From Siphonodentalium dalli (Eukaryota; Mollusca; Scaphopoda; Gadilida; Siphonodentaliidae), in contig CP136061.1 in assembly GCA_032622095.1 (NCBI GenBank), positions 126,864,754 to 126,928,753 of the forward strand: DNA of 64,000 nt, given 5' to 3'. The translations under genes were made by a program, and so were the position numbers. The notes beneath the pieces were generated by a model that was not told where the DNA came from, searched no databases, and saw only the letters and a list, made by a program, of their open reading frames with translations. This document shows positions 29,096 to 50,444 of this stretch, piece by piece; the stretch's first letter is position 1, and each line of letters begins with the position of its first letter.

Positions 29096-29880
29096 TTGTG
29101 TTTTCTCCTTGAGTAATATGCGGAGGGTTATATTTACGAGGCGCAAGCCGAGTGAAAATAATCCTCGCATCTCACGAGAGAAGAAAACCCGTGCGTTACT
29201 CATAGTAACTCAGAACAGTTGACTGTTGTGTTTTTTATATTTTCTATGACAGTTTGTCACGAGCCAGACCACAAGCCTGGACTTAATACGTTCTTAAACT
29301 ATCACATCGCCAGCCATTTGTGTTAAAATAACGCGCAAATATACCGAATGACACAAAACTTGACACCAAGACGCAGTGCTGAGAGTAGGATAACATCTTG
29401 AGAGTAGGATAACATCTTGAGAGTAGGATAACACGTTCGGTCTTCTGGGAGTGGGGACATGATTTATATTTTGATGCAAACTACATGTTCCTGCTCAAAC
29501 AGCTAACGACATTCATGGTAAAACACTTTCCTCGTGATGTACATCGTGGTATTTTGTTTCTTTTGGTATAGAGAGATGATTCGCCTTGTCATTCGTATCG
29601 AATTAACGATGAATGTCAAACGTGTAACATTAATTCCCCAATTGCCACTTTATAAAATATGTTTGTTGGGAAATATCGAACATCCTGAGCATACAGCACA
29701 AAAATAAATATCATGCAGATCTTCAACACCAAACATATAAAGCAGGTTTTCTTCGTCAAACAAATCGACCAATAAATTAAAGACCATTCGAATTTCAGTC
29801 GTTTATCTGACAAGTGGCTATTTGCATTTATATGTTGCATGTATGTCTTGCCATATACATACACTACTCGTTTAATATAT
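29096..29880. other. Unannotated; one 19-bp triplicate
   Basis: GAGAGTAGGATAACATCTT is present about three times in tandem at 29382-29435. No gene supported. Confidence 0.5.
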
Positions 29881-29881
29881 A

Positions 29882-30415
29882 GAGTCCCCAGTGTATAGCG
29901 GAATTTACAAAACGTGTCCAGTTAATTAGGTATGGACCGAGCCTTTGGCGAGGTCGTAACCTAATTTACTGGACGTGTTTTGTGAATTCCGCTATAACTG
30001 AGGACGAGTTGTAGATTCTATTTAATACATTATCCAAAACCTCGACAAAACATATACGTGAATCAACAAATGGGACGCGAAACTAACATCGGCTCATATA
30101 AGGCATGCGATGATGTATCTACGCGTTGTTTGTCCGCGTACAGAATAGTCCCAGATAAACAAAAACTCTTTGTCGCATTTAAAGGCGTATATGTTATGAC
30201 ATAACTTTTTCGAACTCTTTATTCATTATAGTTTGTTCGAAAAATATTGGAAGCCATAGTATTTTGAGATGTAAAGAACGGAATGTAAACAGACGACAAA
30301 CCGGAAGTCAAAGGTCACCTGGCACTATTTCCTGTTATTAACATTTAATATCACAATTTATAGAATGGGTTTATTGAATCGAATAAGGGTAGGATCATGT
30401 AATAAAACGCAGGAC
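29882..30415 (+). mobile_element. Hairpin-led element, copy 1 (uninterrupted)
   Basis: Starts with a hairpin (29882-30009: GTCCCCAGTGTATAGCGGAA, loop CCGAGCCTTTGGCGAGGTC, inverse arm). Unpaired sequence follows, including GGGACGCGAAACTAACATCG, AGTCCCAGATAAACAAAAAC, TCATTATAGTTTGTTCGAAA and GAAGTCAAAGGTCACCTGGC. 58628-60612 is a second copy in the same order, split by an insertion. No coding capacity. Confidence 0.8.
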
Positions 30416-31254
30416 GCGTATCCGCGTTCTAAGTGCAACTATATATCTATCGAACGCGAAATGACTGAAATCGACCCTCGAAATTAGTGACGTTTTTTTG
30501 TGCAAATTTACATCCTTGCGTTAGCCGTTTTAACGGGAACTTGTAATTCGCAACCTGCCGATTGTTAGTTTTCTTCGTGTAATCGGTTCTGCTCGGCCTG
30601 CGAAGGTTTGAGGAGATTGATTATAAACAAACTGAGCATTTATATTTTATTTCATATTGTTCTGTAACAAACGTTTACGGTGAATGCTCCAAAATGGTAT
30701 TCTATTTTCAATAATGGAAACCGTAACATATGACGTACATGTACGCGTGACTATATTTCGTACATATATAGGCCTATAAACGTAAGTTATTCATTTCTTT
30801 CTAACGTGGGTACTTGTATCATCTTCCGCCCGTGCCTTAAACAGCCATTTATGGTAGAGATGTATCGCAAACACAAGGATAGAGTTACGACTTCATTAAG
30901 CTAAGTTGTCGTCATAAATTTTGTTTAAGGCCACAATTCGTTTCGCAAAAATGACAGCGACGAGTATGATATCTGAATTGGACAATGCATGCATGGCTAA
31001 TCACCAAATAATTGGTTTGAAAAATCAAATGTTATACAATTAGTTCAACCTTGTCTTCAGTGTGAAATTTTCAGTTTATAGCTTCACACATATTGCTGAA
31101 GTTTGAGAGACGCCGCAGCACTCACTTTGTCGTCACATTCCAAAGTGTGTGAAAAAATAAGTAAATGATTGTATGATAGAAAATTATAATTGTTCCGTGA
31201 TTCAGAGAATGATACAAGTTGCACGTAATTAATTTAAAATAAACATCGGACCGT
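30416..31254 (-). other. Possible 3' UTR and downstream flank of the EF-hand gene
   Basis: Directly downstream, on the minus strand, of the TAG at 31257-31255. The nearest clean AATAAA on that strand is at 30651-30646, about 600 bases past the stop. A processing site there would be plausible but is unproven. No other feature. Confidence 0.3.
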
Positions 31255-31562
31255 CTACTCCTCATTCTGTAACTCCTGCAATAACTCCTCTAGTTCTTCC
31301 AGTCGTCCATCCATTGTTCTTTTACTCGGTCCATTTCCATTTCCGTTGTTATTGCCGCCATTTTCGTTACCATTTTCGTTAGCATTCTCTTCTCCTTGGG
31401 CGCTGTTCTGTCCATTGCCGTTTCCATTGCCGTTTCCATTGCCGTTTCCACTCCCGTTTCCGTTTCCGCTGCCGTTGCCATTTCCGTTTCCATCGTCTTC
31501 GTCTGGAATACCACCATGTCTCACAATAGCTGCTGCCAGTTTCAGTCCCAATGGTGCTCCGG
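31255..31562 (-). CDS. Secreted EF-hand protein, exon 4 (last): Asn-Gly run and acidic tail
   Basis: Final coding exon of the gene that starts at 48379. The acceptor is TTTAAATAG before 31562. Its first two bases complete a Ser codon with the T left by exon 3, and the frame then runs 101 codons to TAG at 31257-31255. It begins GAPLGLKLAAAIVRHGG, short and amphipathic, then DEDDG. An alternating Asn-Gly/Ser-Gly run follows, encoded by a GGAAAC/GGCAAT hexamer repeat (about 31410-31490). After an Asn/Glu-rich stretch and a small basic patch, an acidic leucine-rich helix ends in LEELLQELQNEE. Asn-Gly runs are known from some molluscan shell-matrix proteins; similarity here may be compositional only. 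The acceptor tract is modest and further exons could lie in the 11.3-kb intron before it. The short reading from the TTG at 31551 is not a separate gene. Confidence 0.72.
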
Positions 31563-33950
31563 CTATTTAAATGGAAAGCAATGTGGTATCATTCGATTAG
31601 TTCCTGTCATAAAAGGTTGATTATTTCTTTTTCTCGTAAGAAGAGCAACCAACGATGGTGCAAGGGTGATGGGTGATGGGGGTGCCGAAACATTTCCAGG
31701 ATACAAGGTCCGGGTGGTTGGGTGGTGCCTGAGAACCCCCCGCCTCAATCGAAGATGTTTCCAACGCCATGTAATTTGTGCTCCAAACCCACGTTTAAAG
31801 ACAAATTATGAATAATAAAATTAATATAAATGTATGTGATTGTGTGTGAGCTGTGAATACGATACCACCAACCCCATACCATAAAGGATAGTATTGTTAT
31901 TGTTTGGTGTTTATGAAATGTCGGAATGTTATATTATGTCCATTTACAGTATCAAGGTCTACTCAATATGTGTTCTTTTATGACATGATATCACGGGGTT
32001 GTCCGGCTTCTGACGAGGAAAACATTCTACTGAAAAAAAGCCATTCCATCAGTTATCACAGGTTTTCATCGTCGTATTTGACCTTCAATTAGAAAACAAA
32101 TACTCATCATTGTTAAGCTAACAACTTTTGATTTCGGGATTCCAATTTCTGTCATTGCAAAGAATACATGTAATTTGTTTGTGCATGCTCTTCAAAATTT
32201 TAATTATTATTTTTTATTGAAACAGACCATAGATGGAAAATTATAATTAAAACAACTACTGGGAAGCATACTACGCAGAAGACCAACGTTGTTGTTTCAG
32301 CCAAACCTTGGCTGTTTATTTCACAGGAGTTTCTGGGATAACCTGTGTGTCGGCTCAGAACATGCGTGCCAATTGAGGAGAACACGCGAAGGATTTGTGT
32401 AAATGTTAGCCCAAACGACATTTCGAAGTAACGACTGCTTTGTTGTTTATTTCGAGGAATAATACCGCATCATATGAATTCAGCCCAAATATATTGACAG
32501 GTGTCAAGGGTCAAACTCAAAACTGAGCAATAAAAAACTAATATTAATAAATACCGAGTATATTTAATTTAACGCCAATGGGTCGTTTATGTGCGTTCAA
32601 GAGTGTATTTATGCCTAAAGCAAAGTGAAATAACGATCTTAAAATGAATTGGCCGGTATATTGTATTAGTTATCAGGGTTACCAGGGTCGTAGTTGCATA
32701 AATTACAATATAGTTTATGTTTATGCTAAGATAACTTGATCGGTATTGAGGTTAACACATATCCCATATATGGACATTCCAAATATGGAAAGTGACGTGC
32801 GCAAAATATAGCTGTGCATCGATATCGGTTATCTGGGTCAGATATATTTATAGCGTCGAAGCGAAGAAATGTCAAATTCCTTGTCTGGATACGCGTCTTA
32901 TTCTCACGTATACCGTGTTTATATCGGTTTTATTCTATGTGTTGTTGTGTATTGTATTACTTTGATCAAGGTTGCGCTTTTGTTATTCTCACAAAAGGTA
33001 AATTTGATGCGTGTTTACATTTCAAAATTTCGTCGGCCATGTACAGCTGTACAGTAACACTGAATTCCACATTCCTGAATTACGAGACTAATTGATCGAA
33101 TGAGGTCAATTTTTCGCATATAACAAGACACGTATATGTTATTCTGGACAATTCTGTCGAGTGCCGAATCTCATTTCGCATTATTTTCGTTTTTATCGAA
33201 AAATAATCGTTCTCTAGCTATGCCTATGGACCATGTAAATTTTTTTCAACCAAAAAAAATTCATTGTTTTGCCAATTTCAAGCTAGTTGATAGCATGGTC
33301 ATGGTATAATTTGGCCTAGCGAGTGTCGGTAGACGTTTCTTGAGTGTGCACAACAAATTTTGGTCCCAACGAAGCAGGCTAAAATCGTGAAATTTGTCAA
33401 TATTACTTTGCGTGTGAAGAAAATATTCATTTAAACTTCCAAAATTGGTTGAAATATGCTCAACAACATTCAGTTGAATGGTGACATTATTTATAGTCAC
33501 CGACTAACTTCCACGATGAATCAAATTTGTTTTTATTGGTGACAATTATGTCGCGAGAGATAAAAATGTTAATTTTTTTAAGAAAATGTTAAATTTTAGC
33601 TCATTTTAAGACTTTAATTGCTTGTAGATTGGTGTTAATTATCTTTGTCAATGATGTCATGTCACGCTTGTTAATAATTCATTTGTTCGGAAATACTTAT
33701 TGGGGGTCGAAATGTATAAAATTTAACTCCCACCACTTCCAAAAACAACACCGATAAACAATAACACTCTATAACACGCTATTTATTGTCCTGATATCAG
33801 TGATATAAATGAATGCCTAAAATTAGTATTATCCTGAAATAAATTTATGCCACTTTGGCGAACATGGGAACCACGGTACAATTTATGCCATTTAGGCACA
33901 CTTCAGAGTGAAATCAGGGCTTATATTTCGGCGAGAATCCAAATCTAGAT
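31563..33950. other. Intron 3, 3' part: unannotated
   Basis: Within the 11,289-base intron between exons 3 and 4. AT-rich; no exon, repeat or RNA gene could be supported. Confidence 0.45.
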
Positions 33951-34027
33951 TCTCGTAAATATTCTCGCAAATTACCCTGAATTCTCGTGAAAAAGTATAT
34001 ATGAATTCTCGCAAAATCAGATGAAAT

Positions 34028-35025
34028 ATATGCCCTGGAAATATAGCAAATCGTTTAATGCTTTAGAATTTTGGTTTTCGGAGATTTATATATATGCTTC
34101 AAGACATATTATGGACTTGTTATGGACTTTTTCGGGTGCGAGAAATTGATAAGTTAGTGCTCAGGCACTTTGCCAACCTGGGGAATGTTATCATTCTACT
34201 AACATCACTGAAAATTTCCAAAAAAATCTGCCACACCACTTCATAGAGAACATCGTCTGAACTACTCCAAATTGTAAATATTTACATCTCGATTCGGGGC
34301 GCAACTATCGGCTATAATTAAACAAAAATGATTTTGCCATCTAGAGTCATTGCATTTAACTAATATATAAGAATGATGTTGTGTATCATCCATTTGGATT
34401 AATATTCGTAACGAATAACTACTTTGAGAAAGATTATTCTTAATTTCTATTCGATCACTCTGCCCGGTGTCTGCCGGAGTGTTTCACATCACTTTAATCA
34501 AGGAAGACTGTTCAGAAAAACTGCATTTCAAGAAATCGTTTAATGCTTTAGAATTTTGGTTTTCGGAGATTTATATATATATGCTTAAAGACATATTATG
34601 GACTTGTTATGGACTTTTTCGGGTGCGAGAAATTGATAAGTTAGTGCTCTCGCACTTTGCCAACCTGGGGAATGTTATCATTCTACTAAAATCAACACTG
34701 AAAATTTCCACAAAAATCTACCACCCAACTTCATAGAGAACATCGTCTGAACTACTCCAAATTGTAAATATTTACATCTCGATTCGGGGCGCAACTATCG
34801 GCTATAATTAAAAAAAATGATTTCGCCATCGAGAGTCATTGCATTTAACTAATATATAAGAATGACGTTGTGTATCATCCATTTGGATTAATATTCGTAA
34901 CAAATAACTACTTTGAGAAAGATTATTCTTAATTTCTATTTGATCACTCTGCCCGTTGTCTGCCGGAGTGTTTCACATCACTTTAATCAAGGAAGACTGT
35001 TCAGAAAAACTGCATTTCAAGATCA
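34028..35025 (+). repeat. Tandem segmental duplication, period about 485-489 bp, holding TTAA elements
   Basis: TCGTTTAATGCTTTAGAATT starts at 34051 and 34536; AGGAAGACTGTTCAGAAAAA at 34501 and 34990. The copies are about 95 percent alike by eye. Each contains a member of the 375-400 bp TTAA family (34101-34497 and 34585-34986). The first copy has lost its left TTAA (TTCAAG). Near identity points to a recent duplication. Confidence 0.9.
34585..34986 (+). mobile_element. TTAA-flanked element, 375-400 bp family (copy 2 of 5)
   Basis: Bounded by TTAA at 34585-34588 and 34983-34986. Left end TTAAAGACATATTATGGACT, right end GAGTGTTTCACATCACTTTAA. The interior contains ATCGTCTGAACTACTCCAAA, TTTACATCTCGATTCGGGGC and ATTGCATTTAACTAATATAT. 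Other copies: 34101-34497, 47110-47484, 51095-51470 and 61865-62247, all in this orientation. Only short, weak terminal inversion (TTAAAG and CTTTAA). Non-coding; mobilised in trans if at all. Confidence 0.85.
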
Positions 35026-35089
35026 CCAAACAACTTTCCTTTTTAGGGCCACCACATCTTTCCAAAGATGTACTTCTTCCATTTTGCTA

Positions 35090-35320
35090 TCAAAGACCGA
35101 AAAATGTCGTTAAACTACAGATCCAAATACCCACTAAGGGCCCCTATATCTTGAAATATTAAAGACCGAGAATGTCGTTAAACTATAAAGACCGAAAAAT
35201 GTCGTTAAACTAGAGATCCAAATACCCCCTATATCTTGAGATATTATAAAGACCGAAAAATGTCATTAAACTATTAAAGACCGAAAAATGTCGTTAAACT
35301 AGAAATCCAAACATCCCCAT
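35090..35320 (+). repeat. AAAGACCGAAAAATGTCGTT minisatellite, alternating long and short units
   Basis: Five units start AAAGACCGAAAAATGTCGTTA near 35092, 35162, 35189, 35249 and 35276. Lengths alternate, about 27-28 bases and about 60-70 bases. The long form adds GATCCAAATACCCC and CTATATCTTGA. Confidence 0.8.
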
Positions 35321-35612
35321 CCCCTATTTTTTTTAGACAATTAGTAACGAAATATGTCGTTACACCATTAATAGATAATTTGTGTTTATGAAAGTCTGGC
35401 ACCCATTAGCAGTTTGTTTTCAGTACATTTTAATATTCATTGGAACGTAAACAATTATTCGCTGCCTTTCGTTACTGGTTTCCTCGACTCAAATATTTCT
35501 CACTGCTCAATACTTCAATACTTATAATTAAAAAAAATGTTCTGTGTTTTGTGTCACTTCTTAATAGCATTATGTATTCTGCTATTGACAAGAAACAAAG
35601 TTGCAGTATACT

Positions 35613-36113
35613 TTAAAGGTATACGGAAGGCCTTGGTGGGTATCCTGTGAACATATTTCCACCTGTCAAAAACCGCTACAAACGAAAATAATATTCAAAT
35701 ATAGACATACTTTGTTAATATACAAATGAGAAATATCTCATAAACAGTATGTTATTGTCGTAAATTTGACGATTGTTATGTAAACAAAGCGTAAAAAGTT
35801 ACTTTCTTGGTGTTTCTTTATATTATGATGGTAAACATAAAGAGCGTTCTTTGTTGCTCAATTCCTTATTTGGAAATAATAAAGAGCGTTTATACCATTT
35901 GTGTGTGATTAGCCAGTAGCATTGTGGTGCCTTCTATAACAAAAATCAGACTCTTGTTTAGGTAAAATTTAGTAGGTCTTTATGTGAGCATGAGGTTTAC
36001 GCGATAGTGATCGTATATTTGAACCAAAATGTATGCGTTTTAATATTTTTCTGTTTACGGTGTTTGGAACAAATATGAATATTTTCGACAACTAAGCCCC
36101 CTCGTCCCTTTAA
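35613..36113. mobile_element. TTAA-flanked element, about 510 bp family (copy 2)
   Basis: TTAA at 35613-35616 and 36110-36113. Shares TGTCAAAAACCGC, CATAAACAGTATGTTA, GGTAAACATAAAGAGCGTT, GGAAATAATAAAGAGCGTTT, TTTGTGTGTGATTA and GGAACAAATATGAATATTT with 18377-18894. Terminal inversions are eroded, so this copy is older. Confidence 0.78.
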
Positions 36114-36950
36114 TATAATTAATATAACATCCCTCATCCAATAATCTCCAAATTGAATATCTAATTTCAATCCTAGTTACACGTCACGCCGCCCGTCATC
36201 ATTTGCCAATTGTACACCCTTTTTTTGCTGCTGCTGCAACTGTTCAATTTCTTTAAAAATTATTGAAAAAATGGCCCTCCCGCCCGCCGACATTTACTTC
36301 TGATTTTTTTTTATCATCGGTCCGCACCAAAATTGAGCACACGTCCCTATATAATATACCTATTTAAACCGAGTATACACGGTGGTGTAATAGATCAACC
36401 GTTAATTTAACCGTTTAGGTAGCATATTTCCACGTATACGTTATCACGACAAATCCCTGCTGATCTGTTATTAATGAACCAAACACTTAACATGTCAACA
36501 CACTCTGGCCCGCCAATGCTACAGTGTATAAACGTAACGGGGCAAATATGCACATTATATTGGCAGCTAACGAGAGCATTCACCATGGGCAATCTGCTCA
36601 CCCCTTTTAGCCGATACGATAGAAACTAAACGATTTGTTACTTCTAATTACCCGTACTTAATTACACAGTCTTATTAAAACCAGACCTAATTTTCATTAC
36701 TTTCAAGGTAAGGAAACCTTGGTCTAGTTATTACTAGACTGTTAATTACACTACTTGCGTGTTAATAAAGTACGACCCCATTACCACTAAAGGTGAAACA
36801 TGGGATTTAGAACATTAATATTCACTCTTACATAGTTCCACATTCAAGGTGTAATCGTATGTCAGTTGTAACGTTGTGAAACTGCAACCGAACTGAATTA
36901 TTCTATGCTAAATAGTTCATGGCTGACCTGATGCATGCATCTTAGTTTTC
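36114..36950. other. Intron 3: unannotated
   Basis: No supported feature. Confidence 0.4.
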
Positions 36951-36959
36951 TTGTATTTA

Positions 36960-38130
36960 ATAACTGGAAGGTTGAAAATCCTGAAGTGTTCTTATCGTGA
37001 ATGGTAAAATTCTTGAAACTATAGCCAGTTTAATTTATCTTGGTGTATTGATGGCAAGTTACGGTAAATTTAATCTATTGTATAAGACAATTGCGCAGGA
37101 CGAATATAGAGCTCTTCACATGCTATATGGAATAATATGACCATACGCGCTTGCGTAATTAACGAACCACAGCTAAAACACACGCATAAGCTAGGATATA
37201 TCTGTGTATTTTTTTTAATCCTATAAAATAACTTCATAGATTCGTATTCCCATCAAATATGATTAACTTAGGCCTTATATCGTGGTGTGATTATGATATA
37301 TTACACTCCAGACATGTACAAGGGTTCATCGACAGAGTGGGTTCTATAGCAATTTCGTGTATAAATTAGGTCAATCATATCATACATCAAGGCATGTGAG
37401 AAATCAGAGATTCACAATGCAAACAGACTACGAGCTCACCGACTCAGACTTAAAACTAAATAAAAAACTTTTAAAAGCCATTCCTTTTGAACAAATTATT
37501 ATAGAATATAAACTACGAACATCAAACTGAAAGTATTCAAAAGTCAAGACTGTTGGTTGTTGTCTAGATGGGAGTATTTTACTGAAATTAACAATATATT
37601 ATTGACGCTGTGTGCGCAATCCGATTGAGATGTACGAAGAAGCTGGTCAATTTCATCATGTTCACTTCATTCATAAAATGTCATCATGTCGATTTCAACG
37701 AAACTCCACGAGCAACGTCATCATGTAGCTTTCACCATCGATCGAATTTGCGATAACCTGAATGTATCTTCTGCTTTATTCACCACTTCCGTTGGATCAG
37801 TGTTAAGCTATGGTTGTGAAGTATGGGGATTTAGTGAAGTATACAGATATAGAAATACTTCATAGAAAATTGTGTAGATATCTCTTGAAAGTTAAGTCAT
37901 CAGCAAACAACGACGCCGTGTTGGGAGAGTTAGGTCAATTCCCCCTTCAAGTAGCGAGGTTGGAGATAATATTCAAATTTGGGCTTCATTGAAAAAAGGA
38001 TAAAAATTCTCTGACTTATGCTAACTTTGAATTATTACACAGAAATGTTGATAGTGGTTTATCTCACCGCGGCTATATTTGGGCATATATTTTAGAAAAT
38101 ACACTGGATAAACTTGGTATTGGATACATG
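36960..38130 (+). pseudogene. Dead LINE reverse transcriptase, 3' part of ORF2
   Basis: Decayed reverse transcriptase relic. At 37003-37137 the frame reads VNGKILETIASLIYLGVLMA then GKFNLLYK and ALHMLYGII, stopping at TGA. It matches the NGxxLE...YLG thumb region of LINE RTs. At about 37755-37848 another frame reads VGSVLSYGCEVWGF, the well-known YGxExWG motif. A frameshift then leads to DIEILHRKLCRYLLKVKSS and GELGQFPLQVARLEI (37847-37989), the usual C-terminal H..FC/GELGxxPL block. After one TGA the frame continues as LTYANFELLHRNV to about 38160. Unrelated or unaligned sequence separates the two parts (37140-37600). Whether it belongs to the 1-3.4 kb family cannot be tested, because that copy lacks this region. 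It lies antisense to the host gene, in intron 3. Confidence 0.8.
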
Positions 38131-38139
38131 ATATTACAG

Positions 38140-38610
38140 ATGCATAATCCGAATTAACGCTCCTAAATTACTAGTTCTTCGGCTTCGAGGGTAACAAATA
38201 TTTTATTCGAGTCGAGGAATCCACCCATCAAAGCTCAGAGTGATCAGATGTCGATTTTTGAAATCTATTTGTTTTCACCACCGATAATTTTACAGTGGCC
38301 CCAGTAACAGTCGACGAGAAGACGGTCTCGGACCAAATGGCGGATGAAGATGGATAACTCTAAAATCAAGTGGCTTTTTTGTGTCAGATATTGGACAAAC
38401 CGGCAAAATTCGTTGAACAAAATGTTGATAAATAACAGGTTTTGAGAAATTTTATACTATAGTTGACTGTGGTTAGCATTATTTTTTGGGCTATTAATTG
38501 AGTCTGCTAACCGAAGCGGCATTTAAAAAAAATGGTTGTTGGAATCTGATGATATGGGCCGGGACCATCGTATCGGATTGAGGAGCTTTTAAACTATTCA
38601 TTTCGCCATT
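38140..38610 (+). repeat. 430-bp repeat family, copy 3
   Basis: CCGAATTAACGCTCCTAAAT, GTCGAGGAATCCACCCATCA, GCGGATGAAGATGGATAACT, AACAAAATGTTGATAAATAA and a TAACCGAAGCGGCATTT tail match copy 2 at 28671. About 75-80 percent alike by eye. The tail continues as in copy 1 (GGGACCATCGTATCGGATTG). Confidence 0.8.
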
Positions 38611-41600
38611 ACACGGTCAGCATATACAGCTTTGGCTGGTTTCTAAAGAAAAGCCTACAAAAGATATGTTTTTTAACAGAATTAAATCGAAATTTGAATT
38701 CGAAACTTACTATCCGTGATTAAAAACCCTAAATTTCGTGTCACTTATAAAATTTAGAGTAAGCGCTCATAATTTGACTAGTTATGAAGGGCGATACAGT
38801 GCGATTGACGTGTCTTCAAATGTTGTCAGCTTAAATCAGTTTAAAGTTAATATCATGTATGTTTTGTTACTTGTGCATGCATGTGTCCTCGTTTCGCTGA
38901 TTTGCGCCGTAAATATTTAAATCCGAATAACTGTCGTTGCATGATCAACTGTCGTTAATACGAAAGGCTGTTTGCTGTTATGAACCCAGTCATATACGTA
39001 TGGCCGCAGGCCCCTTCGCCGCTAAATAAAGGCTCCGGAATGGAGCATGTTTCAGTTAGTATCTATAGTAATAACGTAAAATATCTTGATTGTTGCGTTC
39101 CATATGTGCATGCATATATGTGATATGCTGTGGGTTGGGGAGGGGAGGAGAAAATGCAGTATTTTCCTATACGCTTGGTGCATGTGGTGTCGAGAAGGGT
39201 ACCCCAGTGGTGGATCGTCAGGACTGATGCGACCTTTTTATCGATGTCACATCCAGCTATATATAGCTATAAAGTGCATGTATATGTATCCACCCCAAAA
39301 CTACTATTATTTCATTGCCTGCTCTTTATCTGGAATATCCCAAAGATAAATATCTCAATATTATCCCATATGCACTACTTGTGCGATAACCATTACGTGT
39401 TGTGTTATAACACCTATTTGTATATGCAAAAAAATGTATGCATACATTTAAGCAGTAATAAACTATTCATTAACTTGGCGACCATTTGGTCATTACGCCA
39501 TATTTGGGTATATTCTGTGAAGGTTTTTTTTTTGGCGTGTGATAGGAACTATGAGATAGGAACTATGGGAAAATATGATTAGAAACGTACTTGGGTATTT
39601 TCGTACTCGAACTATGTAACGAAGATTGTGGTCTGATTATTATTCTGCATGCTATTTCGTGCATTATTCACTAGCATGTAGTGTAATGATGTTAATTTGA
39701 TATACAACCCCAAAAAATCGATATTATTATTTTACTTTAGTAACAAGGGGCGTACTCGCAAAATGCGTACCGGTTAGACTGTTTGCAGGATGTGTGTATT
39801 CGCGCGCGGATATATATAGAATGCGAAATTGTGTGGAACGGATGTTATATCGAGGAATATGGCACGTAGGGGGCTCGTTTTTTGTGTCTAACGAAAGGCC
39901 GTTATTCGCCCCAACCAAATATATTAACCCCGCCACTGACCGGACACCAGGAGTTTCATTATTCGGTCGACGACTGACCTACCATCAAATTGTCGAAATC
40001 AAGGCTGCAGCGTTAGTTTAGTTTGGAAGTCAGATTAAAAAAAAAATTCACATGCTTTCTCACCAAGGACACACGATACACACATACAAAAGCAATTACA
40101 TATAATCGACTACATAGCCGTTTCCAATATACACATTTTTGTTTAACACTAGATTACAGCTCCAATATATTTTATATATGCCCATTAATATGATCTTGAG
40201 GGCACTTTCTGACTATGGTTTTCTTGTCTATAGTCGGGGCTAGTCACACGGTAGAGAATGACTGTGACGCGGGTAATATGCGGATATGAATGTTAAACCT
40301 TGTTGATTAAGTTTAATTATAGTTGAGTTTTGTTCAACCATAAATATTTCTGTTGCTTTTCATGGACCAACATAGTTGATATTTCATCTCCATTATAGTT
40401 TACATTTCATCTCCATTATTATTTAACACTTTCACTGTCTTTGTTTGCCATATCCTGCTATTTTTCATCTTTTTAAATCAAATTTAAATCAGTTGGGGCG
40501 GGTACCCAACTGCCCTTGGAGAAAAACAACTTGCGTTGAAGTGGTGGATGTTCGAGATCTGACAAGAAAACAGCTTGCGTTTCTGGGGTGGAGGGTCCCA
40601 AAAATTAATTTAAACGTTGTATCCTGAATTTTTCGGACTCCCCCATCCCGACCCCATCCGAATTGGGTACATATCACACAAAACTGGTGGGTGGTTGGAA
40701 AGCCTTAATTAGGACACGCAGGACCGTCTGCAACCATTTTTTTAAAATCCCACGCAACCCGCACCTGCACATATGCATGTATGTGAGTGCTAAGAAAATA
40801 TGCTTTGTTTTCTGAACATCGTTAATGTCTCTTTTTGAATTTGTAACGTTTATCACACAGTGATCTTTATATACGTGTACAGATACTAACAACCGCATTC
40901 CAGTTTGAACCGGCGTAAACACAAACTGTTTCTTGTCATTATACCGAAAGAGCACATTCCGCCTGATCGAGTTTTATGATGGTCTCGGTTACATATTGCA
41001 GAAACCTTTTGCTTATTGTCCACACCGCCAATGTATAGTGCATATGTAAAGATTTTGTTTGTGCGTAATTCTTTGATAAGTTTTAGCAGTAACGTATTTA
41101 GTTAAGCATTGGCGAAGCGTAACATAAAACGATCTTTATTTCACATTCTGACGAATACATATGTGGCGTTGCCTTTAAGTGATAACTTATATCACTCCAA
41201 TGAAAGTCCGTGGCGGTCTGAAGTCTATATACATCGCGTCCGGTTCTTGGGATCGAAATAGGTCGATAAATATCTCAGATAATTCTATGTGGATTTTATG
41301 TCGCAGAAATACTTATGTCATTCTGCGAATTCATAAAAATCGCGTCAGAAACTGTTCTTCAGTGTGCATCAATAAAGAGCATTACTTGTCTTTCTATGCC
41401 TAATATGTTAAAACAATAAAGAACGTTCATCTCATTACTGTGCGAGGTCACTGAAAACAGCTCTAAAATTCTATGACTTTTTCAGAGTATACACGTTTAA
41501 CACATGTAGATCGATAATTCGTGCATTTATCCACCTATCATATCCATCCTTCTAAATGATGTAGATTCAAATCAACGATGTCCGTTTAATTTAGCATTAT

Positions 41601-42055
41601 TTAGTATACGACGCTCGTACAATAACGATATAGATTTACGGGTAAAGTAGATAAGATAAGTTTATTGGCAATTACACCCACACGAGGCCGATGACACAAC
41701 ACAAATAACAGAATTAAAATTAAAAAATTATCATGTTTGTTGTTGAAAATCTGGTGTTTCACACCTTTTGTGATAAAAAGAGACTTCTGAAGAGTCTTCT
41801 GAAACACGACACATGATCAGCCCTAAAGGCCCATTTAATTTTCTAGTCACATATTTGTTTATAGTGCCTTAATATACTGTTTTAATTACAATATATCACA
41901 TAAAATATGATTAAAATACAATAATTCAATACCATTTGGAACGTTTGTTTCTCAGAAGGTGCCCTTAAAATAGCTGAAATCATATAATTATCCCCCCCCC
42001 CGTTTCGCTCCCAGAATGCAACATAATTCAAATTAAGATATAGAGTTATTCCCCT
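38611..42055. other. Intron 3: mostly unannotated, with diverged repeats
   Basis: Fragments of dispersed families only. 40185-40240 (TATGATCTTGAGGGCAC, CTGACTATGGTTTTCTTGT) recurs at 56828-56890 and inverted at 54236 and 58535. 41527-41595 resembles 20425-20500. 41821-41945 (TAAAGGCCCATTTAATTTTC) resembles 56042-56165. AATAAAGAGCATTACT and AATAAAGAACGTTCAT lie at 41370-41430. No exon was recognised, but exons as short as exon 3 would be easy to miss. Confidence 0.5.
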
Positions 42056-42059
42056 TTCA

Positions 42060-42606
42060 TTCAGGGGGGGGTCGGAAAACAAATTCAGGCACGTATGCTG
42101 ATTTTTTACTTTCGACCATTATTGTGACCCACCCACCCCCGCGTCCAAATTTTTTTCCGTTTTCGGCAGTTTTTTCCGACCATTTTTGGACACCCACCCC
42201 CCCTATTAACACTAAAACAGAGATTTGCGGGGGGAATTCACTGTAAACAGCTGTATATGAATTTATGTGTATACTATTAGTCATGGATGTTAACATTGAC
42301 ATGTAAATAGAAACGAGTCATTTTGTGGTCATTCGGCCAAAAAAAAAACATGGCTGCCAGCGGCCATCTTGGATATCAAAATTCAATCCATCTGCATGGG
42401 CTACAGGCTATACTGTTTGTCTGATCATCATGAAATTTGTCATTTATGTTAATATTGACATATAGATGTATTTTAAGCCAAACTCATTGCAAAAACAGTC
42501 AAAAAGACTTGCAGGAAAAATATTTTTGAGTTGCGGAAACAAATATTTGTTGGTCCCATCGACCACCCACCCACCCCGGCATACGTGCCCGAACCCCCCC
42601 CCCCGT
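42060..42606 (-). repeat. G/C-run repeat family, copy 2 (inverse orientation)
   Basis: The inverse of the 26186-26490 family in two pieces. 42060-42215 holds TTCGGCAGTTTTTTCCGACC; 42440-42606 holds GAGTTTGGCTTAAAATAC (in inverse) and CATCGACCACCCACCCACC. A non-matching insert with a GGCTGCCAGCGGCCATCTTG motif separates them. Confidence 0.7.
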
Positions 42607-42851
42607 TTCATTGATAAATAATAGATCAATACAGTCCAGATGAAACTTAAGCACAGAAAACACATCGATACCTCAACAAAAACAACATGTTCACAGTCAA
42701 TTACACCGAATAAGTTGATAGTACAATGTTTTGGAGCTTCCTCTTTCAAACGGTATATAATATGGCCTATATTTTATATCATGTGATCTGGTGGTTCGAA
42801 AATAAAGTGGGCCTTTAAAACTATCACAAATTATGTGTTGCATGTACTCAC

Positions 42852-42908
42852 ATTCTTCGCCTTCATACAGGAATGGAGCGGCTCTGAATTCCGCGAGATC
42901 TATACCTC
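42852..42908 (-). CDS. Secreted EF-hand protein, exon 3: second half of the EF loop
   Basis: A 57-base exon with an excellent acceptor (CTCTCTTTTCAG before 42908) and donor (GTGAGT from 42851). Its first two bases complete a Gly codon with the G left by exon 2. The frame then reads GIDLAEFRAAPFLYEGEE and leaves one T for exon 4. Joined to exon 2 the EF-hand loop becomes DTNSDGGIDLAE. That has Asp, Asn and Asp at loop positions 1, 3 and 5, Gly at 6, Ile at 8, Asp at 9 and Glu at 12, all consensus calcium-ligand or structural residues. The following EFRAAPFLYEG is the exiting helix. A chance fit of phase, splice sites and loop is very unlikely, which makes this the best evidence for the gene model. 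Confidence 0.85.
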
Positions 42909-45534
42909 CTGAAAAGAGAGAGAGTATCAGCGATAAACTTAGTGGCCCGATTCATCATCTCCATGAATTCTCCCATTCAGTTATCAAAGTATACATTGGA
43001 ATTGTCTATTCTTCATTTGGATGGATGTTTTGGTAAAATAAGGAGATGACAGACAGAAAAAGCAGATAATACAAGAACAGAGTGATTCATATTCATTGTT
43101 GGGAAATGTTCAAATGATAACTTTTTCATGACACTTCTCCGATACGCGACATGCGGGTTGTACCCCACTAGCAGGAGAACAATAGAAATCACATCATAAG
43201 TACTCCATTGGGCGTACTAGGGTTATGCATGTTTACCGCATCAGAGTTTTCTATATGTGGTGTAGTGGACATGCTGCTGTTATTGGCATACAATGTGCAT
43301 ACGTTATACAATATCATACGACATTTACATCCGACAAAGATACCACGTATTGTAATGTAATAGATAATTGATTATAGTAGTATGGTGGTTATCATAGAAT
43401 GATAGAATATAATTGGCTGATATTTATTAATGACGCCAACAGAAATAAAGTTATCTTCCGTGTGATTCTAATCGCGTCAGCAATATTTGGCATTGTAAAC
43501 ATATTAGCCACTGGTTGAGTGATCATGGCGGCTAACTGTCTATGATGTGTGCGTGCCCTGCTGAATTGCTGTGATGCGTGTAGGGCAAATTGATGCTGTT
43601 GATGAAAAAGTACCTGATTATTAGTCAGAGGTTACAGGTAAGTCACGTCGTAAATGGAATCAGGATAGAGGTGTTAAGACAGTTATTTATAATCGGCCAC
43701 CAATTTTCCCACATACATGTATCTTCTGGAATGATAATACACACTTTTTATATTATCATATAATCTATTAGTCCCACTTTAAGTCATCTGAGATCAAAGG
43801 TAAGTAAGTATTCTCAGATCAGCCATTATTCATGGATGGAACATGAGAAGATGCGTCTGTGCCACGCCATTCCCCAGGTCAGGAGACCCACCTGTAACAA
43901 TTTTCCTGCACAAGGAATGTGTATATAATTTGTTATTTAATATTATTAATTATTATTGCCCCTTTAAGACATTTGATGTCAACTGGACCTATATAATAAG
44001 ATTTCCCGGGTCAAATTACCCATATGTGCAAATTTGCAGCTCCGATGGTCCAGCTGTTTCTGTGTAAACAATTAGTCGATAAAAGCCAATTGCGACAGCC
44101 TTTCAAGTTTGATACTGTGTGTCGCTAGTAGTCCATCATGTGGCGTCACATGAAGGGGGATTAACGATTCAGACTGCATAATCCATAATTTAATATTCAA
44201 TCTCACGAATCGGCATAACTTCAGTTACGGGCGGCCTATCACAACAAAAATTTTCGACAACGCACTCAGTGTATTAGCTCACATCGATAATGACTGAGAA
44301 ATTGCACCGGTGTAATCCTTTAAATTACAAAAAAATATTAATCATTAATCATTAGCTTTTGACCTCGTCCATTATCTTTGACCTCGTCTAGTATTGGGTT
44401 GTAGGGGGTGATCCCATAATATATCTATATAAATGTCAAGTGTTTGTGAGTGAGAGTGTGTGTGTGTGTAACTGTCACGATTTTGGCGCGTTTAAAACGA
44501 TATCACCCTCATGTCAGATGGCGCCCAAATGTTGACCATGTCCTGGGCACATATTAGAATACGATATGCTAATTTCAGGCCAATCGGTACTAGACAGTCT
44601 TAGAAATACCGAGTTTCCCAAAGGTTGCCAAGACGATATTTTTACTGATATAATGCGGCACCTTCTCTAAAATATAATGTGGTTTCAGCGGGTCCGTCTA
44701 AATTTCGTACAAATTCCGCGCGCCGTATGTCGGTTTTCTTGATATTGTTATCAGCAGTGCAGTGGTAACAATATTTTCCTGCAAGCCATGTTTGTAATTC
44801 GTCATTTTTACATCAGACGACTTGAAGTGGCATAGGCCTATATGAGCAACAAAGAACGTCCCTTGTCAGCTTAGAAATATGTAGAAAAATTGGTACGCAT
44901 TGGTCACATGGCCATGACAATGCCATGGGATAGGCGCATTTGACCTCATATGACTTAAAGGGGACTGATAGATTACATCATAAAATATATTAAAGACGGT
45001 TTATTATCAGCTCAGATAAAATGTGGGAAAATTGGTGGACAGAGGTAACATGACACGGGAAATGTCACGGTGTATGTGCCGATGTCCTCAAATGACTTAA
45101 AGAAGCATGAATAATTAGCAACTTAAAGAGCGTTTATTATCAGGTGAAGCGTATTATTATTCACACAATGTGCCTGCATGTCATGTTTGTCGTCCGTCAT
45201 TTTGACGGACAAGCCCCTAGTTTACATATAAATAGCGAGTATTTGTGATAACATATTCATTGCAAAAGAAATTGAAATGATACATACAATCCATATAATT
45301 CGTGAAAGCTACTGATTGTATATGTATGCATGGAGACTTTTTAATTAGTCTAACAAAGTGGCCACACCTCTCATTTCGAACCGCATTGTCGGATGGAGCG
45401 CCTTATACTAAAAATATATACTACTTCTCAACTTTGATGACTTCACTTATTGGACATCCGACCGATCGGACGAAGACCCTCTAGTCATGTCCCTGAATCG
45501 ACAAAAGGAGAGGCTACAGTCATTTTCAACTTAC
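42909..45534. other. Intron 2 (2,626 bases)
   Basis: GT at 45534 to AG at 42909, minus strand. Contains a (GT)n tract near 44455-44470 and TTAAAGACGGTTTATTATCAG/TTAAAGAGCGTTTATTATCAG at about 44990 and 45123, the latter pair flanking a 140-base direct repeat with GACTTAAA. No further exon recognised. Confidence 0.7.
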
Positions 45535-45709
45535 CATCGCTGTTAGTGTCGGCGTCCGCGAAAGCAGCCTGAGTGTCTGGTGTGTCTTCGGCGTTGTTAG
45601 CCTGTCGGAAGCAGTCATAATCAATCTTTTTCGGTCCATCGGTTTGTTCGCCACACGTTGCGACCCATGCGTTGAAATCTAGCGGCAATGGCAGGACTTG
45701 GCCTCCATT
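45535..45709 (-). CDS. Secreted EF-hand protein, exon 2: degenerate EF-hand and start of the canonical one
   Basis: Exon of 175 bases with a strong acceptor (TTTCTTTGTAG before 45709) and consensus donor (GTAAGT from 45534). Exon 1 ends in phase 0 and this exon starts in phase 0. It reads NGGQVLPLPLDFNAWVATCG, then a first, degenerate EF-hand (EQTDGPKKIDYDCF: the I-D-x-D-C-F core is kept, but Cys stands where the bidentate Glu should be). The entering helix of the second hand follows (DTQAAFADA), then DTNSD, the first five loop residues. The intron falls after the first base of the next Gly codon. Two Cys (exon residues 19 and 33) could pair in a secreted protein. The in-frame reading past the donor to 45485 is intron. 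EF-hand pairs normally work together, so this hand probably binds calcium weakly or serves structurally. Confidence 0.83.
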
Positions 45710-46007
45710 CTACAAAGAAACATAAAACTGGTAGATTGTGATATGAATTTGAGACAAATATGGCATTCGTATAGTCTTGAGTAAACCCAGCTTATCTATC
45801 GATCAGCTGCGGGTTCGATTGTCTGAAAAAATAACAGGAACCCCATTATTTTCAAAACGTATTGATTTAAACCTATATATTGCACTTGATTAACAGGATA
45901 CAGAGACTTGGGGAATGGCGGACAAGTTCCCAAACCTAGATTGAACCTCAGCTCCCTTCAATCGCATTTAGAATGTGTATAACAACGTGGTATGGTAAGA
46001 ATAATAC

Positions 46008-46222
46008 GCCTTGGCACTGCGTCTGGGCCACATTGGTTCCATCCAGCCCCGTGTCGTTTTTTTAATGCTACAGGTCAAAGGTCTGGAGTAGCATTCCATA
46101 TATGACCTTTTGAATATTCATGAATTCCATATATGGAATGCTACTCCAGAACTTTGACACGTAGCACTAAAAAACGGAACGGGTCTGGGTGGATCCAATA
46201 TGGCCGCGACTCAGTGACAATG
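46008..46222. mobile_element. 215-bp palindromic element
   Basis: Arms of about 95 bases meet around 46110 (GGTCTGGAGTAGCATTCCAT and inverse, loop TTTTGAATATTCATGAA). The outer arms (CATTGGTTCCATCCAGCCCC) pair less well. Foldback MITE type, in intron 1. Confidence 0.75.
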
Positions 46223-47109
46223 CGTATTAAATTCAATCAATTTTGCATGATGTGTGGATGCATACGAGGAAGTATATTATAAGTCACAAGGCGATTGATT
46301 GCCGGATACGGTTTCATGTGAGGCGAAGTTAGATAATCTCGCTGCGCCTCACGTGACACCGTAGCTGGCAACTATAAGAGTATTGTAACGCCTTTATCAT
46401 GCTTTCCATGAATTACCGGTACGAAGTTTATTAGATTTTACTAATCTAAACGTGCTGCCTAAAAAAACTAACTGTATATATGATCATATGTGGCTATTAA
46501 ATTACGAAACGTCACAGTCACGCGCCATGGACATAGAACGTCAGCGCGCTCAGTCAATGGCTATTCATCTGAAATTTGATAACATATATAGTTTGATAGT
46601 TAATTTATGCGACTTCGTCAAATATATCAGATGCAGGTATTGGTACATGGTACAATGTTTTAAGGTCGTAGAAATTATTTCCGACAGATATTAATTTTGT
46701 CAAAAATACACCATATATATGCACGAGACGGCAGAGTTTCAAGAAAACCCCATATGAATCCATATCCCCCCGGGGTGTCCGTATGGGATAGGTGACAATC
46801 AAGGTGAACCTAGTGTCCCTTCATATTCGGCTAGTAGTTCTACATTCTCATTGGTCAATCTACTAGGCCAGCATGATAAACATGTGTGTTATGAGTTATA
46901 AACGGTATATGGTATTAATAGTGTGCATGGTTTTGGAGGCGTGTGCCACCGCACCACCCCAATGTAAGGACGATGGACTTGCATGTTATATATTATATAT
47001 TATATTATATTATATATATTATCCAATAGACCCCACAAATGCAATAACGACACGTAGATTTGTGTTTACCCCCCCCCCCCCCATCATTTCAATCACACGC
47101 ACCCACCCA

Positions 47110-47484
47110 TTAAAGACATATTATGTACTTGTTCGGGTACGAGAAACTGATAAGATAGTATCCAGGGGCTATACCAACTGTAGGAATTTAGCATTCTACT
47201 AACATCACCGTAAATCTGAAGCAAATTGACTGTACCACTCCATATAAAACATCGTCTGAACAACGCTCAATTGTTAATATTTGCTTTTCGATTCGGAACG
47301 CATCAATCGGCGATAAAATGACGAAAATTATATCGCCATCGAGAGTCGCTCATTTAATTAATATATACGAATGATGGTGTTTATTGTTAATTTGGATATA
47401 CTATTTGTAAAAATACCTACTTTGAACAAGATTAATCTACATTTCTATTTGATCACCCTACCGGAGTGTTTCACATCACTTTAA
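47110..47484 (+). mobile_element. TTAA-flanked element, 375-400 bp family (copy 3)
   Basis: TTAA at 47110-47113 and 47481-47484. Ends TTAAAGACATATTATGTACT and GAGTGTTTCACATCACTTTAA, with matching interior (CATCGTCTGAACAACGCTCA, TATATCGCCATCGAGAGTCG). Preceded by C14 at 47069. Confidence 0.85.
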
Positions 47485-47566
47485 TGTGTTCTCCTGATAT
47501 ATCATATTTATATCCATGTATCAGTATTAAATTAGAAATGTGTAATGTGCATGTAATATATAGAGA

Positions 47567-47691
47567 GGATATCTAATGAAACGCAATTCTATACGAAATG
47601 ATTTAACCGAGTGCACTAAATTAGATTCGAGTCGAGCTATAGCGGACGAGGTTAATACATTTCGTATATAATTGCATCGAACTTGAGATCC
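47567..47691. mobile_element. Hairpin element in intron 1
   Basis: GCAATTCTATACGAAATGAT pairs with ATACATTTCGTATATAATTG. The loop region holds CGAGTCGAGCTATAGCGGACGAG. Same architecture as the other CGAG-loop hairpins. Confidence 0.7.
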
Positions 47692-48145
47692 ATTTTATCA
47701 CATAATCACATTTTAGCAAGGAAAAACGATATCGAAACGACTGGGGTTAAAATAAATTAATATTGATTCTCTTATCATAACCAAAGAGGAAGTAAATACA
47801 ACATTACTTCAAGAAAAATATAGTTCCATTAACTTTTAAAGGTGACTGTTCATGTTGACAAGATTGTTCAACAACCCTTATCATGCATGGTTATATCACA
47901 GTCAACACTAAATAGCCCAATATAAATTGAATATCATAAATATATTCTAATTAGCATGATAATAATATTCCGACATCATTGCGGTAAGCACGTACGTCGC
48001 TGTGTGTGCCGATAATACACGAGTGTCTTACTAAAAATATGAGACCGGATTTAGGGGCTAATTATGTGATAATTATATTTACTCAATTATACCAATATCT
48101 ATATGTGATTAAATTAATCTGACTTGATCTGTTCAAACTACATAC

Positions 48146-48379
48146 GTTTTCGAATCCACGTTCCGCTGCAGCTAAGTCCCTCTTCTTGCGTCCGCTGCAC
48201 ACTCTGCTCTTTACATATTTGCATACCCCATTATTACAAGTATACTTCCATACATTTTTGCAGACCCAATCAACAGCACGTCTAATCCAGCGAGTCCTTA
48301 TACCCCAAGATTGAGCCTCATGTGCGCAAATCAAGACGACAAACAACACAGCAATAGTCTGAACAGACACAACCTTCAT
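48146..48379 (-). CDS. Secreted EF-hand protein, exon 1: signal peptide and basic four-cysteine segment
   Basis: 78 codons from ATG 48379 to a GTATGT donor at 48145, phase 0. Residues 1-24 are a signal peptide (hydrophobic core IAVLFVVLICA, cleavage expected after AQS). The secreted segment starts WGIRTRWIRRAVDWV, basic and amphipathic with several Trp. Four Cys lie at 40, 48, 53 and 61, spaced C-x7-C-x4-C-x7-C. SGRKKR at 62-67 is a good furin-type site, so a 43-residue basic peptide (25-67) could be released. DLAAAERGFEN then leads into exon 2. An upstream AG (ATTTCAG, 10 bases before the ATG) suggests a separate 5' UTR exon. Reading past the donor adds a meaningless 20-residue tail. The peptide resembles host-defence or signalling peptides only in general character; I do not recognise the family. 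Confidence 0.78.
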
Positions 48380-48585
48380 TTTGGTGGTTCTGAAATGATA
48401 ATGTATTCCTTTATTTCCTCCAACGATTGAGAGTAAGTATACCCATACACATGGAATTCAAATCATTTTGGCTGCATAGAATATAAACACTCTACACAGA
48501 ATGATAACTATAAAAGTATAAATTAACTACGGAAGACAATTGCGGTCACATTAAACCATATAGAACAATATATTATGTTATCACG

Positions 48586-49140
48586 TTTGTGTTTAAACGC
48601 AATAAGTTTTGTGTTTAAACACTATAGTATAGAGGGTACAACGTATTCCAATTAAGTTGTAGCTATACCTGCAGTTTTGCGTTTAAACACATTAAGGCTA
48701 GTGTTTAAACGCAATGTAGATGGGACAACCCATATCGATGACACTGTAGCTATGTCATGTACATCCATAAAGCACCATAGCTAGGGGTCCGAATAGGGAC
48801 CCACGTCATATTGCTCAGTCCTATTGACCGATTTCGGTCAGACAAAGTGTGACCTAGGGTGGCCTCATTACAACCTTTCGATCCCACCCACCCCCAATCC
48901 AACACCCCACCTAATCCAAAATGGCCGCCGCACACGTGGGTTCAATCCGTCCCAAATGGCAGCCACCCAAAAGCAACGCACGAAGAGACTAATTTCTGGT
49001 GCTTTATCGATGTATATAGCCCACATTTAGCTACAGCGTCATTGACATACTATTGCGCGTATACGCGAGACTTATTGAGTTTAAACGGAAAACGATTGCG
49101 TTTAAACAAAAGCAAAACTATTGCGTTTAAACGCAAAACT
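48586..49140. mobile_element. Inverted-repeat element with seven GTTTAAAC sites
   Basis: GTTTAAAC at 48591, 48613, 48681, 48703, 49079, 49100 and 49125, four on one side and three on the other of a 370-base middle. Inner inverted arms at 48736-48777 and 48998-49046 (CACTGTAGCTATGTCATGTA with ATAAAGCACCA, and inverse) support a single palindromic element. The middle is GC-richer. No coding signal or clear target duplication. Confidence 0.65.
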
Positions 49141-50440
49141 ACATGTAGATCTACAGTGCCATTGGCATACATTATTCCCTCTAATTTATTTTTCTACACC
49201 AATGTATTTGTATTCCTTCACAATTTGTTCAATCTGGTAGGTTATGAGAAAATAAGAGCATATGGTTATTACTGTATTGAGTTACATGACCTCAAATATG
49301 GCATTTTATCACGCGAGTTCTGTGTCAGAGGCAAATTTGGCTAAGTCCAATACAATGGAACACACATTTTGTTTGAGAATATTTGATTTTGTTTCATCAT
49401 AGATGCACATATTAATAATTGTTTGTGTTTTATTTAGTGAGGAAATTACTAGAAAGAAGTGAAAAAGTCCTTCAGTTTGGTCTATTTTTTTAACTAATTT
49501 ACCACAAAATACGACATTTGGCTCATTCTGCGAAATTGAGGTCAAGAAATCAGGTAAACTCGCGTAATTGAAGGCACATAACTCGAAAAAGACTTAAACG
49601 AATCTGGGAATGGTTTTCAGTTCTGGATTCAGTAAAGTGAGTACGATACAATTGGTATTTGCAGGACTTGTTTATACATTCATGAAAATCCATAAATTGA
49701 TGATTTGACAAAATTTTCCCAAATTTATTTCACTAAATTCACCAATTTCCCTTTTCCCGATTTTTGCTGATTTTTAGTATGTTGATTATGGAGGGTTTAT
49801 GTACCTATTCCAACAAAAAAATCTGTTTCAATTAGTTCTGGGTAAAAACATAAATGCACTGGACTAAAATTCCGGTTGCCGTGTGTGCCGATGGATTCAA
49901 ATTTTAAATCCAAGATGGCTGATGGCGATCGTGTGTTTTTACGAATTTCAGAAAGAAATGATGGCTCCCAGCTAGAGGTCACCCGAAAATCCATATAAAG
50001 TTTAGCGAAGATCGATGAGGGAGTTAGATGGCCTGTATATGATGTGTCAAGGGATTTAATTATACAAAGAGTGAAATCCATGATGGCCGCTGGCGACCAT
50101 AAATTATTCGGCTCCCATCTAAAGGTGATTCTGTAAATTTTCAACAACAAAAAACCTCGAAAACCCGAAAATCCATATGGAATTTGGCGATGATTGGACA
50201 TCAATGAAATGTTGTATTCACCTTTGTAAATTTTGGGGTAAATATAAAACAAATAAACAAATGTGGATTTGGCAAACAATGGTCCCTTCTTTTTAATACC
50301 GTAAAACGGTAAAAAGCAAGCTTTCGTCCTGATATATGCAACATGAAAAGCTTGTGTTGTCTTACTTCTGAGCGGAAAGATGAAAACATAATTATGATGA
50401 ATTTACAAGACCTCATAGATCATGCCATGAAACTCTACTC
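49141..50440. repeat. Unannotated, then a diverged duplication with ATGGCNGCTGGCGA blocks
   Basis: 49900-50000 (AAATCCAAGATGGCTGATGG, GGCTCCCAGCTAGAGGTCAC, CGAAAATCCATAT) is repeated at 50070-50200 (AAATCCATGATGGCCGCTGG, GGCTCCCATCTAAAGGTGAT). The minus-strand open frame here reflects the repeat and has no recognisable domain. Confidence 0.5.
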
Positions 50441-50444
50441 AGGC

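Follow-up and report, generated by a model that had tools for sequence, protein, structure and literature searches.

A predicted secreted-peptide precursor with an EF-hand pro-region and its gene family in the scaphopod Siphonodentalium dalli

A 64,000-nucleotide stretch of the Siphonodentalium dalli genome (contig CP136061.1, positions 126,864,754 to 126,928,753; hereafter the window) carries on its minus strand a four-exon gene for a 257-residue protein. Judged from its sequence, this protein is very probably the precursor of a processed secreted peptide, composed of a signal peptide, a cationic Cys-rich peptide, a basic cleavage site and an acidic extension with an EF-hand. The best explanation of the whole, which we hold with fair confidence, is a modular family of secreted peptides that share an EF-hand pro-domain and of which the window copy is probably antimicrobial. 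An antimicrobial role of this copy's peptide, taken by itself, is somewhat favoured. The first-pass annotation of this DNA had listed the parts of the protein without being able to name their architecture; it can now be recognized as that of a prepropeptide, in the order given for mytimycin precursors in the available part of PMC8004829.

Gene structure and parts of the precursor

The four coding exons (Table 1) are separated by introns of 2436, 2626 and 11289 bases, all of them with GT-AG borders and in phases 0, 1 and 1. Splicing joins them into an open reading frame of 774 bases that ends with TAG. On re-reading, the exons, their borders and phases and the length of the product matched exactly those first proposed. 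The four-exon gene model is as good as certain, and it is more than a chance arrangement because the same structure is found again on contig C4, both in a segmental copy and in three diverged genes. A non-coding exon is likely to precede the ATG, because acceptor-like sites lie upstream of the start codon in the window gene and in most of the first exons viewed; by eye, pyrimidine-AG sites were seen in 13 of 18, the window gene counted.

The copy on C4 belongs to a segmental duplication that spans the whole gene, with exons 1 to 3 in the block of 97.9% identity and exon 4 in that of 97.6%. The duplication also includes stretches present in the window alone, at about 32.3-36.9 and 38.8-40.9 kb, as well as C4-only stretches. 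All four exons are open in the C4 copy, whose coding sequence differs from that of the window gene by six substitutions and a 6-base indel that keeps the frame. Exon 3 is identical in the two copies, and exon 4 holds the indel together with three synonymous and no nonsynonymous substitutions. One of the stretches present in the window but missing from the C4 copy contains two tandem copies of a 489-base repeat; related sequence (75-85%) is found elsewhere in both the window and the C4 copies.

The diverged C4 genes g29, g34 and g376 have exons 1 to 4 in the same order, with an exon 3 of 57 bases; in g34, exon 4 is shorter, its first segment being missing. For a fifth gene on C4, whose exon 2 lies at 164131.7 kb, a frame resembling this tail was read at 164124.0 kb (E-value, E, of 0.04). 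Since the gene sits in a duplicated segment whose introns have large insertions, one might suspect that its exons came together by chance or that it is a duplicate in decay, but both copies are open, the differences in exon 4 are synonymous or in-frame, and the same four exons occur in diverged paralogs. The paralogs rule out chance assembly, and the alternative as a whole is hardly credible.

By the -3/-1 rule, the signal peptide is presumably cleaved after AQS. The candidate mature peptide that follows has 39 residues, a charge of +8, four Trp and four Cys spaced 7-4-7, and it meets the cleavage site as SG-RKKR. In the paralogs, the counterpart of this site reads RKKR, RKRR, SKRR, RRKR, KRKR, ARRR or KR. 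The pro-region has a charge of -25. Its EF loop 2, which is completed when exons 2 and 3 are joined (DTNSDGGIDLAE), has D, N, D, G, I and E at positions 1, 3, 5, 6, 8 and 12, and the full set of Ca2+ ligands that had been claimed for the spliced loop is indeed present in these 12 residues. The EF-hands had also been described as paired. This is half right: loop 2 is canonical, but loop 1 (CGEQTDGPKKIDYDCF) survives only in a degenerate form, without the ligand pattern and with Cys at both ends. The EF-hand domain of paralog g29 clears three Pfam cut-offs (PF13202, PF00036 and PF13405).

In exon 4, the Asn-Gly run varies in length, while GEENANENG..GPSKRTM is conserved and contains a second basic pair (PSKR). 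The other elements noted at first, namely the signal-like start, the RKKR site, the EF-hand, the Asn-Gly run and the acidic tail, hold and recur in the C4 paralogs. Matches of the protein to PDB sequences with E up to 0.039 are all confined to residues 175-227, the Gly-Asn run, and were discarded as low-complexity matches; the first EF-hand match in that search has an E of 0.074.

Table 1. Features of the window, with positions counted from its first letter.
Feature	Position	Strand	Remarks
Probable splice acceptor of a non-coding 5' exon, tatcatttcag	48390..48400	-	Ends 10 bases before the ATG
Exon 1	48146..48379	-	234 bases
Signal peptide, MKVVSVQTIAVLFVVLICAHEAQS (exon 1)	48308..48379	-	Residues 1-24; judged by eye; similar in C4 paralogs g29, g34 and g376
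Candidate mature peptide, WGIRTRWIRRAVDWVCKNVWKYTCNNGVCKYVKSRVCSG (exon 1)	48191..48307	-	Residues 25-63; counterpart differs widely among paralogs
RKKR, predicted furin-type cleavage site	48179..48190	-	Residues 64-67; from sequence
Linker DLAAAERGFEN, end of exon 1	48146..48178	-	Phase-0 donor GTATGT; from sequence
Exon 2: degenerate EF loop 1 with Cys pair (C..IDYxCF), first half of EF loop 2	45535..45709	-	175 bases
Exon 3: second half of EF loop 2, FRAAPFLYEGEE	42852..42908	-	57 bases
Exon 4: APLGLKLAAAIVRHGG segment, acidic Asn-Gly run, GEENANENG..GPSKRTM, acidic tail RLEELEELLQELQNEE, TAG	31255..31562	-	308 bases
Segmental duplication with C4:164306147-164325999	29696..51740	.	Five main blocks, 91.1, 97.6, 95.1, 97.9 and 99.7% identical; right end is the edge of the compared C4 stretch, not the true boundary
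Two 489-base tandem copies	34048..35022
Tandem array of a 191-base unit	14642..17024		About 13 copies
Open reading frame of 664 residues	1445..3439	-	Perhaps a mobile-element protein

A dispersed EF-exon family with varying peptides

Protein searches of the 2.23-Gb, 9-contig genome scored the best candidates alone, and the family counts given here are lower bounds. The EF exon (the domain of exon 2) was read at at least 24 places, the window included, and at least four more exon-2 matches lie outside these (C7:134.125, C7:91.78, C4:164.08 and C7:7.05). In the first 10 EF-exon rows aligned, nine residues (W, C, C, F, A, F, A, D and G) are invariant. Loop 1 is degenerate with Cys at both ends in all ten; the opening half of loop 2 follows Dx[DN]xDG in nine, the exception being DTTRNG in L017. 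The closing half of loop 2, which includes Glu12, was read in the window gene, the C4 copy and the loci L009-L012 and L023. The same five loci are those among the 20 others (L009-L028) in which the 57-base exon 3 was found in the same phase and with both splice sites; for the remaining 15 the sequence reached just 0.6-1.2 kb past exon 2, where the count is uninformative. The weakest member of the family is L028, with E from 0.39 to 1.27.

A candidate first exon, with a signal-like start, a Cys/Trp peptide, a basic site and a phase-0 donor, was identified at 16 of the 23 other loci and in part at L024, and none was found in the available upstream sequence of L023, L025, L027, L028, L035 and L036 (6 of 23). 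The first exons of dispersed loci were screened for three marks, a hydrophobic beginning, a GT donor in phase 0 and a pair of basic residues, before a choice by eye, and some may be wrong; most are probably right because they are alike within subfamilies. L024 (C2:191.07 Mb), in which the N-terminal half of the EF exon is aberrant, is possibly a decaying member. The gene had at first been seen as a single odd secreted EF-hand protein. It is real, but what the genome holds is a family of peptide precursors rather than a lone protein, in which the EF-hand part would be the constant carrier and the segment formerly described as basic and Cys-containing the varying product.

The peptides encoded by the first exons cover a wide range. 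In the C4 cluster the peptides are cationic, rich in W, R and C and about 35-53 residues long, and they precede RKKR, RKRR or SKRR. Their charges are +8 for the window gene and g29, +11 for g376 and, with the basic end included, +15 for g34. Those of C5:46.28, C2:58 and C1:230 comprise 32-33 residues with 2-4 Cys and charges of -2 to +1. At C9, C8, C3 and C1:132 the peptides are 9-13 residues long, with one Cys pair and two Trp and a G-KR end in three of the four; C1:228 and C1:22 encode LCLFNWGSC(T/N)FNFHFG-KR, and the first exon of C7:95 a His-rich peptide. The peptide of C7:134.155 (5 Cys) and two candidates upstream of the C4:164.13 gene (6 and 7 Cys) precede RRKR or KRKR. Against 4 Cys in the window peptide, the 14 relatives counted have 2 to 7.

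Despite these differences, the Cys frames are related to each other. The 7-4-7 spacing, shared by the window peptide and g29, is mirror-symmetric, and it equals the 3-3-4-3-3 spacing of g376 and two first-exon candidates at L033 (one with an extra N-terminal Cys) after removal of the partner pair Cys2 and Cys5. C1:230 is without both outer Cys that are present in C5:46.28 and C2:58. Such loss of symmetric pairs is expected from a ladder of nested disulfides. Under random placement, mirror symmetry of six Cys has a probability of 0.005, and g34 and C7:134.155 depart partly from the symmetric frame. The two L033 candidates are different peptide exons on the minus strand of C4:164138001-164147000 (1965-2153 and 3433-3639), both with a KRKR or RRKR end at a GT donor and both upstream of a single EF exon found, at C4:164131.7 kb. 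They are possibly alternative first exons, or one of them belongs to a second gene with its EF exon missed.

The short members bring other functions into view. Five of the six predicted one-disulfide peptides of 9-16 residues precede G-KR, an amidation signal (the two of C1:228 and C1:22, QGDCGGWWSSCG-KR twice and QSQSCSWWSTCHG-KR), as could be expected if the products were neuropeptides or hormones and the EF-hand region the pro-part of a prohormone. EF-hand precursors of this kind have precedents. A 1998 paper by Bogdanov, present by its title in reference lists, reportedly concerns a gene encoding neuropeptides and an EF-hand region in giant interneurons; we take this gene to be the snail HCS2, whose likeness to the window gene is one of title alone. 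The nucleobindin/nesfatin precursors also combine a signal peptide, dibasic sites and EF-hand motifs, but they have a leucine zipper and a conserved EF part, and a variable Cys-rich N-terminal peptide is not described in the available part of PMC9004410. For the window gene we find a hormone unlikely in view of the length, high charge and SG-RKKR end of its peptide, and of its C4 relatives g376 and g34, which are strongly basic too, with very different mature parts.

A structural Ca2+-binding protein of the shell or mucus matrix, with the Asn-Gly run and acid tail as its working parts, would account for a low-complexity tail of variable length in an EF-hand protein of secretion type. It would not explain why a basic cleavage site recurs, why the Cys/Trp peptide varies and why some members have peptides of 9-16 residues, and we rank it low, as quite improbable, because of these short-peptide relatives.

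Substitution rates and the nature of the peptide

Ten pairs were compared segment by segment (signal, mature and EF), and the nonsynonymous rate (Ka) of the mature part was the highest in six. It reached 0.446 in g376-g34 (signal 0.039, EF 0.026), 0.671 in C5:46.28-C1:230 (signal 0.143, EF 0.057), 0.573 in C5:46.28-C2:58 (other segments 0.106 and 0.135), 0.334 in C9-C1:132 (0.138 and 0.090), 0.171 over nine codons in C8-C3 (0 and 0) and 0.558 in window-g376 (0.318 and 0.316). For two pairs picked for their contrast, Fisher tests gave p values of 4e-12 (g376-g34, mature versus all the rest) and 2e-10 (C5:46.28-C1:230, mature versus signal plus EF, linker excluded). In L021 (C8:136.43 Mb) and L022 (C3:284.62 Mb), the signal and EF core codons are identical while the mature part reads QGDCGWLWC in the former and QGDCGGWWSSCG in the latter, which suggests that change is focused on the peptide.

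Several results weigh against the proposed reading. The mature part is not the fastest segment in C1:228-C1:22 (mature 0.024, signal 0.076, EF 0.037) and window-g29 (0.320, 0.207 and 0.408, respectively), and the pairs window-C4 copy and C9-C3 are too similar for a ranking. In both contrast pairs the ratio of Ka to the synonymous rate (Ks) of the mature part stays below 1 (0.446/0.568 = 0.79 and 0.671/0.766 = 0.88), the alignments are gapped, which inflates rates in short peptides, and, for window-g29 and window-g376, Ks has reached saturation in the majority of segments. The comparison therefore points to a faster change of the mature part and demonstrates no positive selection. Between the window gene and its C4 copy, all three substitutions in exons 1 and 2 are nonsynonymous. 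The PF00036 match of the window protein (residues 125-147, E 2.9e-5, 23.8 bits) is below the cut-off of 25.4. Charges of 14 mature peptides range from -2 to +15, with 10 of them at -2 to +3, and the family as a whole is therefore not antimicrobial by composition. The 7-4-7 symmetry, taken alone, has a chance probability of 0.053 (4 Cys). AlphaFold2, run on the lone 39-residue peptide without alignment, models residues 6-18 as a helix, with just a short hairpin around NNGV (predicted local distance difference test, pLDDT, 73.5; predicted template modelling score, pTM, 0.40), rather than a ladder hairpin. A Foldseek search of this model against the PDB returned no meaningful fold match (two matches, best E 7.7). 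In Pfam, the sole match of the window mature peptide is to PF07365, alpha-conotoxin precursor, and is sub-threshold (E 0.015); the two mature peptides scanned with Pfam have no family signature above cut-off.

The weak PF07365 match raises the question of a toxin-like peptide, secreted against other animals in venom or deterrent mucus. In toxin families, the Cys-rich product typically varies while signal and pro-region are conserved. We consider such a function very improbable for the window gene, as the match lies under the cut-off and the strong positive charge and Trp/Arg pattern would better fit membrane-active peptides.

Proposed processing and known precursors

If the window peptide is antimicrobial, its maturation can be pictured as follows. 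The precursor would enter the secretory pathway, where the pro-region would bind Ca2+. The negative charge of the pro-region may mask that of the peptide and help it to fold or pack. A furin-like protease would then cleave after RKKR, and the freed peptide could form a disulfide-laddered hairpin (C1-C4, C2-C3) and act on microbial membranes. The short one-disulfide members, mostly before G-KR, would more likely be signalling or toxin-like peptides released from the same carrier.

Tachyplesin has Cys spaced 3-4-3. Like this peptide and the other beta-hairpin antimicrobial peptides (polyphemusin, gomesin, protegrin and arenicin), as described in the accessible part of PMC4410394, the window peptide is short, basic and aromatic, with Cys arranged symmetrically about a 4-residue turn. 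It differs from them in its wider 7-4-7 spacing, its N-terminal Trp/Arg extension and its EF-hand pro-region, and its hairpin is a proposed one.

The mytimycins are antifungal peptides of mussels, reported to be restricted to the order Mytilida. According to the part of PMC8004829 at hand, their precursor consists of a signal of ~23 residues, a mostly cationic Cys-rich mature peptide, a dibasic site and an acidic EF-hand C-terminal extension; the genes have a non-coding first exon and form a multigene family with variable disulfide arrays, and the function of the EF-hand is called unknown. The window gene has the same order of signal (judged by eye), cationic peptide, basic site and acidic EF-hand extension. 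However, the mytimycin described there has a mature peptide of 54 residues with 12 Cys, and the group 10 core and up to 6 accessory Cys, whereas the window peptide has 39 residues and 4 Cys. As its Cys number falls outside this range of 10-16, we do not call the gene a mytimycin. Further differences from the mytimycins of that source are that the EF domain is divided between two exons, that another exon encodes an Asn-Gly/acidic tail and that some relatives carry very short peptides. By analogy, the window peptide may nevertheless work like mytimycin. Among the matches listed in the open-licence literature, mostly titles and abstract starts, there was no description of the present family of EF-hand-carrier peptides.

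Elsewhere in the window, the 664-residue open reading frame (Table 1) has Pfam matches of coiled-coil type, all of them weak and under the cut-off. In the genome, profiles of molluscan hemocyanin (PF14830) and hemerythrin (PF01814) gave no match; PF14830 also hit none of its 14 controls, PF01814 hit seven of 14, all prokaryotic, and genes split into exons may escape such a search. At C4:156.2-156.7 Mb and C4:186-187.7 Mb, matches to PF13499 (EF-hand pair) over the cut-off are densely clustered.

A broader proposal, to which we give an even chance, is that one EF-hand pro-domain serves throughout the genome as a universal Ca2+-binding carrier for unrelated-looking secreted disulfide peptides. 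A single first coding exon would change or be replaced while the carrier exons stay fixed, and one locus may splice two peptide exons alternatively. If this is true, the carried peptides extend from six-Cys cationic hairpins to cyclic Trp peptides of 9-16 residues, mostly with an amidation signal. The family is a source of varied disulfide peptides that may be overlooked when exons are annotated one by one, because the peptide exon, as judged from the two mature peptides scanned, is without a Pfam signature above cut-off and one of the coding exons measures 57 bases. As a second and much more varied family, it makes testable what a Ca2+-binding pro-domain does for many different peptides.

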